39,273 bases of DNA, from contig JAGUVT010000087.1 of NCBI GenBank assembly GCA_020062745.1, positions 1 to 39,273 on the forward strand, in the 5' to 3' direction. Of this stretch, positions 1 to 6,304 are shown one piece after another. Every line of letters starts with the position of its first letter. The first letter of the stretch is position 1. The DNA is from Deltaproteobacteria bacterium. GTDB taxonomy: Bacteria; Bacillota; Desulfotomaculia; Desulfotomaculales; JAGUVT01. Under the pieces are notes generated by a model that had not been told where the DNA came from, searched no databases, and saw only the letters and a list, made by a program, of their open reading frames with translations. The position numbers and the translations under genes are program-made.

Positions 1-234
1 GTGCCGCATCTGCCAGCGCCAGTCCTGCCATTCCGCTTCATCAGCGCCAAAATACTTGAGTATCCGCTGTTTCTTTGCCTGAATTTCTTCCTGCAAATCA
101 AAACCGGTAAGAATATTTTCCTTTTCTGCAAGGTAGTCAGCTATTTTATCTTTCAAATCCGTTGCCCTGCTCAGAGCAATTTGCTTTTTCTTCTGCCGGT
201 CTATATTGTCTACCGGTACCGGATAAACCGCCAT
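1..234 (-). CDS. eam: Glutamate (or lysine) 2,3-aminomutase, N-terminal part only
   Basis: The gene runs off the left edge, so only the first 78 codons are present. Seen: the translation opens MAVYPVPVDNID, continues through a charged helical stretch with TGFDLQEEI, and ends in EAEWQDWRWQMRH. The W-x-DWRWQ block is the hallmark of the radical-SAM, PLP-dependent aminomutases. Known: lysine 2,3-aminomutases have only about 20 residues before this block, whereas glutamate 2,3-aminomutases carry a longer N-terminal region like this one, so the glutamate enzyme (beta-glutamate formation) is favoured. The ATG at 234 is preceded by a GGGGGG-type ribosome binding site. A c-di-AMP riboswitch and terminator precede it, which fits osmolyte synthesis. 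The radical-SAM CxxxCxxC motif lies outside the window and cannot be checked, so substrate choice is an inference. Confidence 0.72.
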   Translation of the reverse strand, partial: MAVYPVPVDNIDRQKKKQIALSRATDLKDKIADYLAEKENILTGFDLQEEIQAKKQRILKYFGADEAEWQDWRWQMRH

Positions 235-248
235 TTATGAATCCCCCC

Positions 249-285
249 TTGGAAAAATAATAAAGCCCCAGGAAGTTCCTGAGGC
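249..285 (-). terminator. Intrinsic terminator of the c-di-AMP riboswitch (expression platform)
   Basis: On the minus strand a 9-bp stem (GCCTCAGGA paired with TCCTGGGGC, one G-U pair, 3-nt loop, bases 265-285) is followed directly by a U-rich stretch. It sits between the aptamer and the ribosome binding site of the aminomutase gene, the usual place for a transcription-terminating expression platform. Confidence 0.75.
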
Positions 286-319
286 GCAATAAAAAACCCG
301 ATATTAACCAGGCCAAAAC

Positions 320-490
320 TAAAACCAGGTCATAGCACTTTCCACGCTTGCGAAGTTAGCTGACGGGTTCGGGTCGAAAGTTAACCCTACCTTTTCAAGC
401 AACAAACGCTGCCCTAAAAAGGACTCACCCCAGGAATTTGGTTCCCCCGCTTCTTTCCTAAAAAAAGAATTAAGCGCCCCAGCGAGTTTA
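320..490 (-). promoter_or_regulatory. c-di-AMP riboswitch (ydaO/yuaA class)
   Basis: Read on the minus strand, the leader contains the conserved blocks of the ydaO/yuaA aptamer in order: CGCTGGGGCGCTTAA, then GCGGGGGAACCAAA, GGGGTGAGTCC, a variable stem, and near the 3' side ACCCGAACCCGTCAGC followed by TAACTTCGCAAGCG. The last block (bases about 341-371) is almost identical to the family consensus. Known: this class binds c-di-AMP and usually shuts off K+ uptake, cell-wall and osmoprotectant genes. Here it precedes an aminomutase that could make a beta-amino-acid osmolyte. A covariance-model search against RF00379 would settle the call. Confidence 0.88.
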
Positions 491-506
491 TTTAGTTGTC
501 CAAATA

Positions 507-512
507 ATTATA
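507..512 (-). promoter_or_regulatory. Probable -10 element of the riboswitch/aminomutase promoter
   Basis: A perfect TATAAT on the minus strand lies just upstream of the riboswitch aptamer, placing a transcription start near base 500. No good -35 hexamer is seen at 16-18 bp spacing, so the promoter is AT-rich with a weak -35. Bases 513-640 otherwise hold no recognisable gene. Confidence 0.5.
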
Positions 513-660
513 ACATATTAACTTAAGTTTATAAATGCTTCCTAAAAAAATATTCAGGATACTTACCCATCAAAAACAAAATTAAAAAATCATATCTCCG
601 GCGAATTTAAGCAAAGGTTTCAGCCATCAGATAAAGAAACCTTAAGTGGGGTGATTTGAC

Positions 661-1389
661 ATGAAAATTATTATAACCAATGATTATAAAGAAATGAGCC
701 GCCGTGCAGCTTGTTTCATTGCCGGCATGGTCCGACTGGCAATGGCTATACCTTCCGGCAGTACCCCGCTGGGACTGTACCAGGAGCTGGTCCGGCTACA
801 CTGTAAAGACGGCCTGGACCTTTCCCGGGCGACTTTCTTCCTCCTGGACGAATACTATGGGCTCAGCCCGCAGGAAGAGGGCAGCTTTTACTCCTTTGTT
901 TACAGCCACTTTATTGCCCCCGCTAAAATATCCGCCGCACATGTCCACGCGCCTGACACTATGTCTTTGAATGCAGTCGCCGCCGGCCGCCAGTATGAGA
1001 AGGAGATTTCCAGTTCGGGCGGCCTGGATCTGGCGGTTCTGGGCATAGGACACAACGGCCATATCGGCTTCAACGAGCCCGCCCGTCCGTTCAATTCCCG
1101 CACCGGACTGGTAACACTGAGCCGGGAAACCATATCCGCCAATAAACGTTTTTTTAAAGCTCCGGCAAATGTCCCCCGGCAGGCCATCTCCATGGGTCTG
1201 GCCACCATCACCGAAGCGCGGCAGACTTTGCTGCTGGCCAGCGGCGCCGGAAAAGCAAAGGCTGTTGCGGCAGCCCTGGAGGGACCGGTAACCATCATGG
1301 TTCCGGCCTCCTGCCTCCAGCTTCACCCTGCCTCTACTGCCGTCATAGATGCCGGTGCGGCATCACTCTTAAAAACCCATTTTACTTAA
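661..1389 (+). CDS. nagB: Glucosamine-6-phosphate deaminase
   Basis: Converts glucosamine 6-phosphate to fructose 6-phosphate and ammonia in the cytosol, feeding amino sugars into glycolysis. The 242-residue product matches the family length. Visible motifs: IPSGSTPLG near residue 30 (phosphate loop), LDEYYGL near 63 (catalytic Asp region) and the family signature LGIGHNGHIGFNEPA near residue 127. ATG at 661 follows a GGGGTGA ribosome binding site. The next plus-strand gene in the pathway, nagA, is 5.2 kb downstream; the space between is filled by minus-strand genes, so the two nag genes are not one operon. The last 21 bases overlap tail-to-tail with the decayed PfkB kinase gene. Confidence 0.93.
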   Translation: MKIIITNDYKEMSRRAACFIAGMVRLAMAIPSGSTPLGLYQELVRLHCKDGLDLSRATFFLLDEYYGLSPQEEGSFYSFVYSHFIAPAKISAAHVHAPDTMSLNAVAAGRQYEKEISSSGGLDLAVLGIGHNGHIGFNEPARPFNSRTGLVTLSRETISANKRFFKAPANVPRQAISMGLATITEARQTLLLASGAGKAKAVAAALEGPVTIMVPASCLQLHPASTAVIDAGAASLLKTHFT

Positions 1390-2359
1390 AAAACATAAAA
1401 CTTCATCCCTTAATGGCAAAGACGGGATGGCGCCCATACGGGTTGTGCTAATGGCAGCAACAGCGTTGGCAAACCGGCAGGCTTTTTCAAGGATATCTCC
1501 GGAGAGGTATCTCCAGTTTTTTTCACGGTGCTCCACCTTCAGCAAAGCTGCCAGCAGGCCGGCGGTAAAGGCGTCACCCGCCCCAGTGGCGTCTACCGCC
1601 TGTACCGGCCATCCCGGTACCTTTCCCTGACCGGCCCGGCCGGCAAAAAAGCTGCCGCCGGCGCCAAGTGTAACCACCACCAATCCGACTCCGCGTTTAA
1701 GCACCCAACCCACGCCTTCTTCAACACTTTCCCGGCCGCTGATAAAGGATAGCTCTTCCCTGCAAATCCACGTTATCGAGCACTCCATCAATTGCTTCCC
1801 CGGCGCTTCCAGGAGAAGCCCACAGAGCAAGTCTCAGGTTCGGGTCAAAAGATATCTTCAGTCCGTAAAGCCGGGCCAGTTCTATTGCTTTCTTCGTAGC
1901 ACTGCAACTCGATTCGCCGATCAAGGACAGAGCTCCAAAGTGCAGGACTTCAGCCTTCCTTATCAGCGCCGGATTAATATCCTTCTCTTCAAGGAGCATA
2001 TCGGCTCCCGGGTCGCGGTAAAATAAAAAATCCCTTTCGCCCGATTCAGTCAAAGTAATAAAAGCCAGGCTGGTTTTGGCCGCGCCGGTATATGATACGC
2101 CCTCCAGACCAACCCCATTTTCAGAAAGCACTTTATATAGATAATAACCGAAAGCATCATCTCCCAGTTTTCCGATAAAACCGGACTGCACTCCCAACCG
2201 GCAGAGCCCCACCGAAACATTGGCCGGCGCACCCCCCGGCGCCTTGTTGAAACCGGTAACGTCCATCAATTTCAGGCCGGTCTGCACCGGGACAAAATCA
2301 ATCAGGGCTTCGCCCAGGGTCAGTACACGCGATACGCCTGCTCCCTCATCTTCAACCAT
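1369..2359 (-). pseudogene. PfkB-family sugar kinase (fructokinase-like), frameshifted
   Basis: Two overlapping reading frames together make one ribokinase/fructokinase-family protein. The N-terminal frame (2359 to about 1755) contains GEALIDFVP, the first PfkB signature (GGAPANVSVGLCRLG, then GKLGDDAFG) and SFDPNLRLALW. The C-terminal frame (about 1765 to 1369) contains REELSFISG and the catalytic signature DATGAGDAFTAGL. Where the frames meet (about 1750-1770) a few residues normally found between the DNVD and EELSF positions are missing, so this looks like a short out-of-frame deletion and not a single-base read error. The ATG at 2359 overlaps the end of the upstream GH15-like pseudogene by 8 bases, so the two once formed an operon. 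A split but functional enzyme is unlikely because the signatures lie on separate fragments. Confidence 0.82.
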
Positions 2360-4351
2360 TTACGCGCAAACCCCCTACGTCGAACCTCTCACCCCACACC
2401 AACACATTCTCAAATTTCATGTAATCCAGGTGCAACGGCCGGCTTGCACTTCTCTTTTCAAGGTCGGCATGAGCCAGCATGGCCCTGATAAAGCCGCACT
2501 GCAAAAAACTAGGCATTCCAATTCCGCGGGGCAGGTCATAAGTATACATAAGCTCAGGAAAAAGACCGCAAAAAGTGGAATAATTCAGGGTGGTACCGAA
2601 GTAATGCCAGCCGTCCGCCATCCGGCCCTGGGCCAAACAGGCCTCGCCTAAAAGGAAGGTATAAAAAAGCCAGGGACGAAGGTCTCCCTCCTCCGTAATA
2701 GCTTCTTCGTAACCTCAAACTGAATATTTCTCCTAACGAAATTAAGCCAACTCCCTCCTCCGTAATAGCTTCTTCGTAACGCCACACCCCGCCCAAAACA
2801 GGGTCAACCAGCCGCTTCTCGCAGGCCGCTACTGTTTCTTTCAGCAACTCCCTGTCATCAAACACTTTCAAATCACCGAAGAGAAAATTCAAAACCGACG
2901 CATCAAGGCGGGCGGATTCTCTCGAACGGTAGAGAACGCCGTTTTTTACACAGTGGGTAAGAATCGCCCCTTTTAAATCACTGCAGCACTGACGGTACTT
3001 CCCGGCCTTCTCCAGGTCTCCCACCGCCTCCAACATACACGCGGCCTTATCAATTCCGTAAGCGGAGATAGCGCTGGTCCATACCATTTGCTCGCACTTT
3101 TGACCCAGATGCGGCCCGAAAACCTCCGATATACCGGCGCAGGATTTGACCAGACCGAAAAAGCCAGCGGCATTGTTGCAAATCCAGTCACCGCAGTATT
3201 CAATCAATGGCAGAAATTCTCTGATCAGGTCCCTTTCCCCCAGAGCACGGTAACAGGACCAGATACCGTAAATGATCAAACCCGTGGAATCGTTCTCGTA
3301 AGAATGCTCGTTGGGCATTCTGGTGGTAGTGCTAAAAGCAAAGTAAAAATTCCCGTCCCGGCGCTTTTTTAATATTTTCTTTAGCGCCCGGAGAGCTTCG
3401 ACAGCTTCGACCGGGTGTCCGGCTCTTGCTAAAGTGGAAATAATCCAGATGCTATCCCTTACCCAGGCGTTCCCCTGATAAGGCCTGAAACCGATTAGAA
3501 CGGGAAGATTGTTTTTTTGCAGGCAGCTTTTTCAAAAGGGTAAGAGAAGTGCGCCAGAGATAATTTAAACGGTTGTCAGACGTAACCAGGCGCGTTCCAC
3601 TTTGATGCCACTTATCCCACCAGGTAAGAGTTTCGTGGTAAAGACAATCCCCTGATGCCATAACTTTCTTAATTTCTTTAACCGCTCTCGTCTTATTGCT
3701 GCCGAGGGCCAGCACCAGTTAGACCGGCTGGCTCCAACCCCCTTCAGGCACAGACTTTACTGCCGGAAAAGTAACCGGTGAGGGAATACTGCCGTGTTCA
3801 AAGGCAGCCTGCCGCACCCCCTTGATTGAAGCAACAACATCCCCGCTGGAAACCGCGGCGGCTCCGCTGCAGGTTACAGCAAGCCACATATTGTGAATAA
3901 TACGGGAAAGAACAATTTTAGAAACCTTGCCTGCCACGTTCACCAGGTTCACCACCGGATATATTGTAGCCAGGGCGCTGTCTCCTCTCAAGGTAGATAC
4001 TTCAATGCTCCGCATTCAGGAGGCAACCAGGTCCTGGTACGCACCATTATATTCCCCTTGTGGCTGATAACCTGGTAAACCCCACTTCCCTCTACGAATT
4101 CTGCACTGTCAACAGAAATGATTTCGCCCGCCTGTCCCGGGTTGTCTCTGATCAAACCATAAGGATCGTACCAGATACGTTCGTGAGAAAGTTTAACCAG
4201 GGCAGTGCTGCCGCCATCGCCCAGTATCCAGGAAGAAAGGTCATAATCAGGGTAGAACAACTGGGACAGCTTATCTACCGGCCTGCCGGCGTCGTATTGT
4301 TGCAACCAGGCCAGTATTGTGCCGTTAGCCAATGGAACGTTATTTTCATGG
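2352..4351 (-). pseudogene. Glycoside hydrolase family 15-like (glucoamylase/trehalase type) gene with multiple lesions
   Basis: About 665 codons of homology-like sequence are spread over three frames. Pieces in order: VPLANGTILAWLQQYD ... SQLFYPDYDLSSWILG (N-terminal beta domain), STLRGDSALATIYPVVN, ETLTWWDKWHQSG with RLNYLWRTSLTLLK, then RPYQGNAWVRDSIW, FSTTTRMPNEHSYENDSTG and RLDASVLNFLF with GGVWRYEEAITEEG (catalytic alpha/alpha barrel), and a tail after DLRPWLFYTFLLGEA. Lesions: a frame change near the ATG at 4351 (which has a good AGGGAG site), another near 4000-4010, an in-frame TAA at 3719-3721, a frame change in a 7-T run at 3512-3518, and a 67-bp insertion at 2684-2780. Family assignment rests on overall layout; the activity (maltodextrin, trehalose or other) cannot be told. 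Clearly non-functional as read. Confidence 0.72.
2684..2780 (-). repeat. Exact 30-bp direct repeat flanking a 37-bp insert inside the GH15-like pseudogene
   Basis: Bases 2684-2713 and 2751-2780 are identical over 30 bp and encode the same residues (YEEAITEEG) in two different frames. The 37 bp between them have no place in the protein, because the correct continuation (DLRPWLFY) follows the second-read copy. The net gain is 67 bp, which is not a multiple of three and therefore breaks the gene. Confidence 0.9.
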
Positions 4352-4371
4352 TTTCTCCCTGTAAAAAACAA

Positions 4372-4554
4372 TTTTTATCCTCCAATTTTATATTATAAAA
4401 ATAGTATGTTACCTGTTATATTGCCTGTTCCAGTATCTGGAGCCCTTTGCAACTGATTATATATTTAACTTATTTTAATCATTGCCCTCCCTTAAATCAA
4501 GAAATTTCGCGTACTTTTTCTTCCTCGGAAACAAGGTTAAATATTATTTCATTT
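4372..4554. other. AT-rich intergenic stretch between khtU and the GH15-like pseudogene
   Basis: No coding signal, convincing promoter or strong terminator was found. The short open frames that cross it are shadows of khtU. Confidence 0.5.
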
Positions 4555-5790
4555 TTACTCTTTACCTGCATTAAAATTGCCCAAAATCTGCTTGATCCCT
4601 GAAAGCTTGTTCCAGAAATAAACGGCAGCCGTATAAATTTTTCTTGCTCTTTTAGCCAGCACAGGACTTGCCAGAGCCAGCAAAAGGACGTAAAGAGCGG
4701 CAAACGGTTGCATTATTCCGACCATGCCTGCTGTAGCAGCCAGGCCGGCAACAACAACAGAAAATTCACCGCGGGCAATAATTGTACAGGCTATATTGGC
4801 TGCTGCCGGACCACGGTAACCACAAGCCCGGGCGCTCAGGTAACCGGCCAACAGGTTCCCCGCTATAGTGGCAAAAGTCATCATCACGGCGATACCCGAT
4901 ACAGCGGCAAACTGGTGATAATCGATGTTCATGCCGAATGAAAGGAAAAACACTCCACCAAAAAGGTCACGTAAAGGAGCAAAAATCTGAATCAATCTTT
5001 TAGCATGAAGTGTCTCAGCCAGTACCAGCCCCAACAACAGAGCGCCTGCCGCCTCGGTTACATGAAGAACATCTGCGAGAAAAGCAGCAAGAAGGATTAA
5101 AGCAAACGCCAGCACAGTAAATACTTCACCACTGTGAATACTTAACAGGCGGTTAAGATAGACGCTGAGGCGACGAGCTCCCAAAAGCAAGAAAAACACG
5201 AAAATCATGACGGCAAGGCTGCTTAAAAATACTGATGAAAATGCGGCTTTCTGAAACAACAAATAACCGGACAAAAAAGAGAGGTACAAAGCCATGAAAA
5301 TATCTTCAAACACCATGATGCCCAAAATAAGTTCGGTTTCCGGATTGGCCGTCCGCTTTAATTCCATCAGAAGCCTGGTTATTATTGCGCTGCTGGAGAC
5401 GGTAGTAATCCCCGCCATGACAAGCATTTCCGGTACAGAACCAAAGAATACCCATCCTAAAGCCAGGCCGCGGATAAAATTTAAACCCACATAAATGCTG
5501 CCGCCTTTCAGGATGATAACCCCGTTTTCAACCACTTTTCCGGCCGAAAACTCCAGACCCAGGTGGAAAAGCAAAAAAAGCGCCCCCAGGCGACTGAGCA
5601 GTTCAATAGACTCACTAACATTAATCAGCCGTAAATCCAACCAACCGTAACCAGGAGCATGAGGACCAAAAAATATGCCCAGCAGGATTAACAGGGGGAT
5701 AGAACTGAACTTAAGCTTATTTGCTGTTAGAACAGCCAGGCCAATAAAAATAAAAACCAGGCCGAGGTTGGCGACAGGATCTTCGAACAT
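4555..5790 (-). CDS. khtU: K+(Na+)/H+ antiporter membrane subunit, CPA2 family (KhtU-like)
   Basis: A 411-residue integral membrane protein with about 12 hydrophobic segments. It opens MFEDPVANLGLVFIFIGLAVL and carries the CPA2 landmarks LGALFLLFHLGLEFS near residue 90, FEDIFMALYLSFLSG near 160 and ARGEFSVVVAGLA near 340. Length and layout match Bacillus KhtU (YhaU). It lacks the cytosolic Rossmann/TrkA-N tail of KefB; that regulatory role is supplied by khtT, whose stop is only 4 bases upstream. The pair should expel K+ in exchange for H+ at the cytoplasmic membrane, protecting against excess K+ or alkaline stress. Ion specificity is inferred from family and partner. Confidence 0.85.
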   Translation of the reverse strand: MFEDPVANLGLVFIFIGLAVLTANKLKFSSIPLLILLGIFFGPHAPGYGWLDLRLINVSESIELLSRLGALFLLFHLGLEFSAGKVVENGVIILKGGSIYVGLNFIRGLALGWVFFGSVPEMLVMAGITTVSSSAIITRLLMELKRTANPETELILGIMVFEDIFMALYLSFLSGYLLFQKAAFSSVFLSSLAVMIFVFFLLLGARRLSVYLNRLLSIHSGEVFTVLAFALILLAAFLADVLHVTEAAGALLLGLVLAETLHAKRLIQIFAPLRDLFGGVFFLSFGMNIDYHQFAAVSGIAVMMTFATIAGNLLAGYLSARACGYRGPAAANIACTIIARGEFSVVVAGLAATAGMVGIMQPFAALYVLLLALASPVLAKRARKIYTAAVYFWNKLSGIKQILGNFNAGKE

Positions 5791-5794
5791 AGCG

Positions 5795-6304
5795 TCAATC
5801 TTCTTCCCTGGTCACAATTTCCTGAAATCGTTCAACGTTGCCCAATTTACCCGCGCATACCACCACCTGGCCGGGCAGAAAAACAAAACCGGGGCCGGGG
5901 TTGATCGCAGTGGCCTTCTTCTTGCCCTTGCTATCCTCCTCGATAATAGCAATTACTGTAACGCCGTGATTTTTACGCAGACCCAGCTCGCCAATGCTTT
6001 TCCCCACCACCTTCGCGCCTGGTGCAACTTTAAGCCACTCAATGCGAAGCTCGGCAATGGCCAGTTCAAGTTTTTCCAGCATCCTGGGTTGATAAAAAGC
6101 TCCTCCGATAACAGAACCCACCTGACGGGATTCCTGATCAGTCAGGGTAAAAGAAAAGGCGGGCTCACTTTCTCCAGAAGGGAAATGGTATAATTCCCGG
6201 TGCCCTTCATCGTAAATGACAACTACCAGACGATCACTGCTTTCAAGCTCAATTTGATACTTTTTGCCCAGTCCCGGCAACTCCGCCTCCTTGATCAGGC
6301 TCAT
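5795..6304 (-). CDS. khtT: KhtT-like regulatory subunit with C-terminal RCK_C (TrkA-C) domain
   Basis: A soluble protein of 169 residues. Residues 1-75 form the KhtT-type N-terminal domain (LPGLGKKYQIELESSDRLV near residue 10). Residues 85-165 form a TrkA-C fold: IEWLKVAPGAKVVGKSIGEL, then a beta strand with GVTVIAIIEED and the closing PGPGFVFLPGQVVVCAG. Known: Bacillus KhtT binds c-di-AMP in its RCK_C domain and activates KhtU. Here it is translated just before khtU, 4 bases apart, with a GAGGTGA site upstream of the ATG. It diverges from nagA. Activation by c-di-AMP is an inference from the family, strengthened by the c-di-AMP riboswitch at 320-490. Confidence 0.85.
   Translation of the reverse strand: MSLIKEAELPGLGKKYQIELESSDRLVVVIYDEGHRELYHFPSGESEPAFSFTLTDQESRQVGSVIGGAFYQPRMLEKLELAIAELRIEWLKVAPGAKVVGKSIGELGLRKNHGVTVIAIIEEDSKGKKKATAINPGPGFVFLPGQVVVCAGKLGNVERFQEIVTREED

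Follow-up and report, generated by a model that had tools for sequence, protein, structure and literature searches.

A c-di-AMP riboswitch leader ahead of a glutamate 2,3-aminomutase gene and its likely role in the control of osmolyte synthesis

c-di-AMP is best known for its control of K+ and osmolyte transport. Riboswitches that bind it have been reviewed as lying near genes for both the synthesis and the transport of osmoprotectants (PMC7288161), and in Dehalobacter a c-di-AMP riboswitch shuts off transcription of a lysine 2,3-aminomutase gene in vitro (PMC9337991); the placement of such riboswitches on osmoprotectant genes, including lysine 2,3-aminomutase in Dehalobacter, is already known. 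The glutamate 2,3-aminomutase gene (eam), where it is found under Na+-I riboswitches, has been named as an osmoprotectant (beta-glutamate) gene (PMC9337991). At the protein level, c-di-AMP in Bacillus subtilis binds at the dimer interface of KhtT and switches export on, with a stronger effect at high pH (PMC10117811). A search of the literature, with the older surveys of ydaO gene context lying outside its scope, returned no c-di-AMP riboswitch tied to the synthesis of sucrose or trehalose.

The window analysed here (39,273 nucleotides) is the entire contig C34 of a genome of 148 contigs (2.69 Mb, 99.65% complete), and the 80 relatives with which it was compared all belong to the same order. 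On the minus strand of the window a promoter-like site, an aptamer, a terminator and the start codon of eam, at position 234, follow one another in this order (Table 1). The first-pass annotation had proposed a ydaO/yuaA riboswitch with a terminator ahead of a "glutamate/lysine 2,3-aminomutase", and both RNA elements were confirmed, as the RF00379 covariance model was matched over its whole length with 89.8 bits (gathering cut-off 38 bits) and the hairpin GCCUCAGGAACUUCCUGGGGC, followed by UUUAUUAUUUUU, at 285-265 stands between the aptamer and eam. The leader is the same in kind as other RF00379 riboswitches, with a full-length aptamer and then an intrinsic terminator upstream of a gene of osmotic function, and differs only in a longer insert in the variable loop of the aptamer. 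Besides RF00379, no Rfam family scored over its cut-off in the window.

Table 1. Features of the window and riboswitch-associated gene arrangements in related genomes
Genome	Feature	Positions	Strand	Remarks
Window	eam, N-terminal 78 codons, glutamate 2,3-aminomutase	1..234	-	TIGR04368 positions 2-64, 67.4 bits
Window	intrinsic terminator-like hairpin and U tract	265..285	-	9 pairs, -14.3 kcal/mol
Window	c-di-AMP (ydaO/yuaA) riboswitch aptamer, RF00379	331..486	-	E 6.3e-20, model 1-134 of 134
Window	aptamer core segment UUCCUGGGGUG, proposed antiterminator strand	426..436	-	would pair with terminator 5' arm
Window	promoter-like site TTTATA-N17-TATAAT with TG	507..535	-	upstream of leader; consensus match alone, 10/12, extended -10
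Window	nagB-like glucosamine-6-phosphate deaminase	661..1389	+	divergent from eam; separates eam and khtTU
Window	fructokinase (PfkB), frameshift-broken	1369..2359	-	frame -1 covers homologue residues 1-191, frame -2 covers 186-270
Window	glucoamylase/trehalase-like gene, several frames	2352..4371	-	67-base direct duplication at 2684/2751
Window	khtU-like K+(Na+)/H+ antiporter	4555..5790	-	Na_H_Exchanger / CPA2
Window	khtT-like RCK_C (TrkA_C) regulator, proposed c-di-AMP receptor	5795..6304	-	homologous to B. subtilis KhtT
G007	riboswitch, eam, sps-like GT, spp			best solved matches 6kih (Tll1590) and 1s2o, respectively
G009	riboswitch, sps, spp, without eam			
G046	riboswitch, eam, otsAB			1040.8 bits to bifunctional trehalose model
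G003, G064	eam, then otsA or otsAB			leader off contig
G055 (C236), G037 (C7), G073 (C120), G016 (C36), G064 (C235), G014 (C139)	riboswitch directly before otsA/otsAB			gaps 116-203 bases
G024	eam, then lysine 2,3-aminomutase			
G012	eam, then spp-like relic			
G034	riboswitch, amino acid permease-family transporter, KimA-like by sequence	L134:9094-11193		riboswitch 5-6 kb from khtTU
G047	riboswitch, glycine-betaine-type ABC transporter	L135:3608-10226		riboswitch 5-6 kb from khtTU

The closest described system is the Na+/c-di-AMP tandem riboswitch of Dehalobacter sp. CF (PMC9337991). There, as proposed here, c-di-AMP acts as an OFF signal over a KamA-family aminomutase for a beta-amino-acid osmolyte, and in both cases a segment of the aptamer is proposed to pair with the left arm of the terminator. 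The window differs in that its gene is a glutamate 2,3-aminomutase and in that no Na+ aptamer scored over the cut-off, either in the window or at the eam loci scanned for a tandem arrangement. Compared with the eam genes under Na+-I riboswitches (PMC9337991) the gene is the same, but the predicted sensor is for c-di-AMP and not for Na+. A second RF00379 copy in the genome (contig C28) precedes a cell-wall hydrolase with LysM and Hydrolase_2 domains. Cell-wall hydrolases are typical targets of c-di-AMP riboswitches.

The aminomutase gene is split over two contig ends. Its remainder opens at the very beginning of contig C84 (L006:2-997) and covers positions 78-403 of the 404 in TIGR04368 with 591 bits, and the two contigs were joined because these two pieces are the only KamA-family pieces in the genome. 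Between the pieces about 13 codons are missing. The sum of the two scores (67 + 591 bits) would exceed the curated TIGR04368 cut-off of 650, with the proviso that the gene is in two pieces. The C-terminal piece scored 422 bits with lysine 2,3-aminomutase compared with 591 bits with TIGR04368, and in an alignment to the lysine enzyme (PDB 2a5h) K and N stand opposite its D293 and D330; we take these two aspartates to be lysine-binding and K and N in their place to mark glutamate specificity. Scores and residues point to a glutamate 2,3-aminomutase and not a lysine 2,3-aminomutase, so that the family given in the first annotation stood and its undecided substrate could be narrowed. An operon of the kam/kdd type for lysine fermentation was considered and rejected, as no other KamA-family gene was found in the genome and the next gene is a remnant of a sucrose-phosphate synthase gene.

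The predicted mode of switching relies on the aptamer core segment UUCCUGGGGUG (436-426), which is able to pair with the 5' arm of the terminator (286-276) over 11 contiguous positions (G-U allowed, -17.1 kcal/mol), a pairing equalled by 5 of 500 dinucleotide-shuffled aptamers. When ligand is absent this pairing would let transcription enter eam, and when c-di-AMP is bound the aptamer would retain its core, the terminator would form and eam would be silenced. The P1 strand CUGGGGCGC (482-474) is also able to pair with the same arm (-16.2). In most of the relatives' leaders for which a terminator was found it is again this core segment that pairs with the 5' arm, and for 16 leaders their own arms paired better than swapped arms, with 5 of 2000 permutations as good. 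This pattern fits an OFF switch in which ligand binding frees the terminator; both the ligand response of the eam leader and the direction of switching are predictions. On the evidence of two diadenylate cyclases identified by sequence, one cdaA-type and one disA-type, of which one is located beside glmM and one beside radA, the genome makes c-di-AMP; it also carries a gene for a PgpH-type 7TM-HD protein.

The switch could instead act mainly on translation, by pairing of an aptamer segment with the ribosome site and start region, given that GUGAGUCCUUUUU (428-416) and AGGGGGGAUUCAU (249-237) can form 13 contiguous pairs (G-U included, -12.8 kcal/mol) and that in several relatives no terminator was found and only about 50 bases separate the aptamer from the gene. 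In the window, however, the aptamer is followed by a strong terminator ahead of the gene, the 5' arm of this terminator forms a better, species-matched pairing, and we regard a mainly translational switch as very unlikely here. Since several of the relatives' leaders had no terminator in the scan, the terminator mechanism predicted for the window is not universal, and those leaders may act on translation.

To place the arrangement within the order, 67 Eam-type loci in the 80 relatives were compared with the positions of RF00379 matches. A listed match was located at most 700 bases upstream at 46 loci, and direct scans added six more (G066, G065, G053 and G044, together with G056 and G079, where the match is partial at a contig edge). 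With four loci left out as the contig ends there (G060, G057, G003 and G064), a riboswitch preceded eam at 52 of the 63 evaluable loci, and the arrangement is thus common to most relatives. One that is in culture and has the riboswitch ahead of eam is Desulfofundulus thermosubterraneus. A riboswitch went undetected at 11 of the 63, seven of them in genomes of family f16 and four elsewhere; all seven f16 genomes (G015, G026, G036, G045, G054, G063 and G072) have eam without a detected c-di-AMP riboswitch.

A second c-di-AMP output had been suggested about 4 kb away, where a khtT-khtU pair was read as encoding a K+/H+ antiporter whose Bacillus relative is switched on by c-di-AMP. This pair was upheld, as the KhtT of the window shares 40% identity with B. 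subtilis KhtT (PDB 7agv, E 1.8e-35) and lies beside a CPA2 antiporter, and khtU is also found beside khtT in all six named relatives with a close khtT, which include Desulfofundulus and Desulfovirgula. In Staphylococcus aureus KtrA the RCK_C contacts to c-di-AMP are D167, R169, N175 and I176 (PMC7288161). The KhtT residue R110, invariant with respect to B. subtilis, was placed at KtrA R169 by motif spacing, whereas the D167 position is G in the window, and at the N175 position both the window and B. subtilis have T. The gene pair, the overall identity and the retained RCK_C arginine thus resemble B. subtilis KhtTU, and the differences are that no khtS was noticed upstream, that the gene neighbourhood is another one and that the aspartate two residues before the RCK_C arginine is a glycine. 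The protein is proposed as a c-di-AMP receptor, and KhtTU would be a separate output of c-di-AMP at the protein level (K+ export) within the same general physiology.

The nearness of eam and khtTU was a different matter. Both are plausible c-di-AMP targets, the leader and khtU are about 4.1 kb apart, and in G034 and G047 a c-di-AMP riboswitch that leads transporter genes lies 5-6 kb away from khtTU, all of which could suggest that eam and khtTU are kept together as outputs of one turgor-lowering module. Against this, the two are on the same strand but in separate transcripts with the oppositely oriented nagB between them, none of the 43 relatives carrying both eam and khtT has them within 30 kb, and eam is absent from the neighbourhood of khtT at all six named loci, and a conserved eam-khtT module was rejected. 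A riboswitch within 6 kb of khtT was seen three times compared with about 0.8 expected (P = 0.04 with the index case and 0.17 without it), which makes for a weak excess over chance. There is little probability that the two were kept together as a module; given the 0/43 result the nearness is probably coincidence, the two being chance neighbours found in the genome of the window only, and the meaning given to it earlier was not borne out by the survey. A joint turgor-lowering logic, in which c-di-AMP stops osmolyte synthesis and activates K+ export, is plausible from known biology and would not depend on the genomic location of the genes. The linkage claim adds nothing to the picture of osmolyte synthesis.

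More is gained from the genes that share the riboswitch with eam in relatives (Table 1), where sps denotes a gene for sucrose-phosphate synthase, spp one for sucrose phosphatase and otsA one for trehalose-phosphate synthase. In addition to those listed, lysine 2,3-aminomutase genes stand directly under the riboswitch at no fewer than nine loci. The sps-like GT scored below every curated cut-off, with MshA as its best NCBIfam match, and the name sps was given on the strength of its closest match among solved structures and of the spp gene next to it. In the genome of the window, contig C84 carries directly after eam (L006:1012-1690) an sps fragment that matches as far as residue 177 or so, and fused to it in another frame are the final 55 residues of spp. 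This looks like the loss of some 1.4 kb from genes that are intact in G007. The most economical reading of this remnant is an internal deletion in a G007-like eam-sps-spp operon, with misassembly as an alternative.

Beta-glutamate, the compound that Eam would make from L-glutamate, is a compatible solute that is metabolised slowly; low c-di-AMP would allow osmolyte synthesis and high c-di-AMP would be a signal of high turgor or K+. The riboswitch-led partners in relatives and the sps-spp remnant support both the osmolyte role of the product and the idea that c-di-AMP switches compatible-solute synthesis off. Alternatively, Eam might serve metabolism, in glutamate degradation or in supplying a beta-amino acid for a secondary product, with c-di-AMP control reflecting the nitrogen or energy state, in line with the control that c-di-AMP has over central metabolism in other bacteria, for instance through pyruvate carboxylase (PMC7288161). 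No catabolic genes follow eam, however, its riboswitch-led operon is shared in relatives with genes for sucrose, trehalose or beta-lysine synthesis, and beta-glutamate is established as an osmolyte that cells metabolise slowly (PMC1224877), so a metabolic role is unlikely. We consider it likely that c-di-AMP, acting through the riboswitch leader, turns off eam and with it the synthesis of beta-glutamate as an osmolyte, with KhtTU a separate output whose position is probably incidental; of the logic first put forward, the OFF-type riboswitch over a probable osmolyte aminomutase is kept and the nearness to khtTU is not.

For the order as a whole, we lean, with less assurance, towards a c-di-AMP riboswitch that is a shared OFF switch for the synthesis of the chemically distinct solutes beta-glutamate, sucrose, trehalose and beta-lysine, with genes gained and lost by a single operon under the riboswitch, of which the genome of the window would have lost the sucrose part and kept beta-glutamate. 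A riboswitch on sucrose synthesis in general was rejected, as none of nine sps-spp loci outside the order (398 genomes of the phylum) had one, and the association with sps is for this reason lineage-specific. The modular multi-osmolyte operon is the part worth following. This comparative evidence extends c-di-AMP control, through RNA, to the production of organic osmolytes, disaccharides among them, across an anaerobic order. The riboswitch contexts predict which solutes its little-studied members make, and they offer a test of whether a single signal, c-di-AMP, governs ions and organic osmolytes alike.

Two further genes in the window, the frameshift-broken fructokinase and the glucoamylase/trehalase-like gene, may be what is left of the sugar pathway to which sps-spp belonged, and in G188 (L153) a 57%-identical fructokinase is found beside sps-spp. 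The glucoamylase/trehalase-like gene is possibly a pseudogene or an assembly error. On C84 an MscS-type mechanosensitive channel gene is located about 2 kb after eam (L006:2942-4036), and in G007 an MscS-like gene is also found after eam-sps-spp, on the opposite strand (L109:9839-10990).
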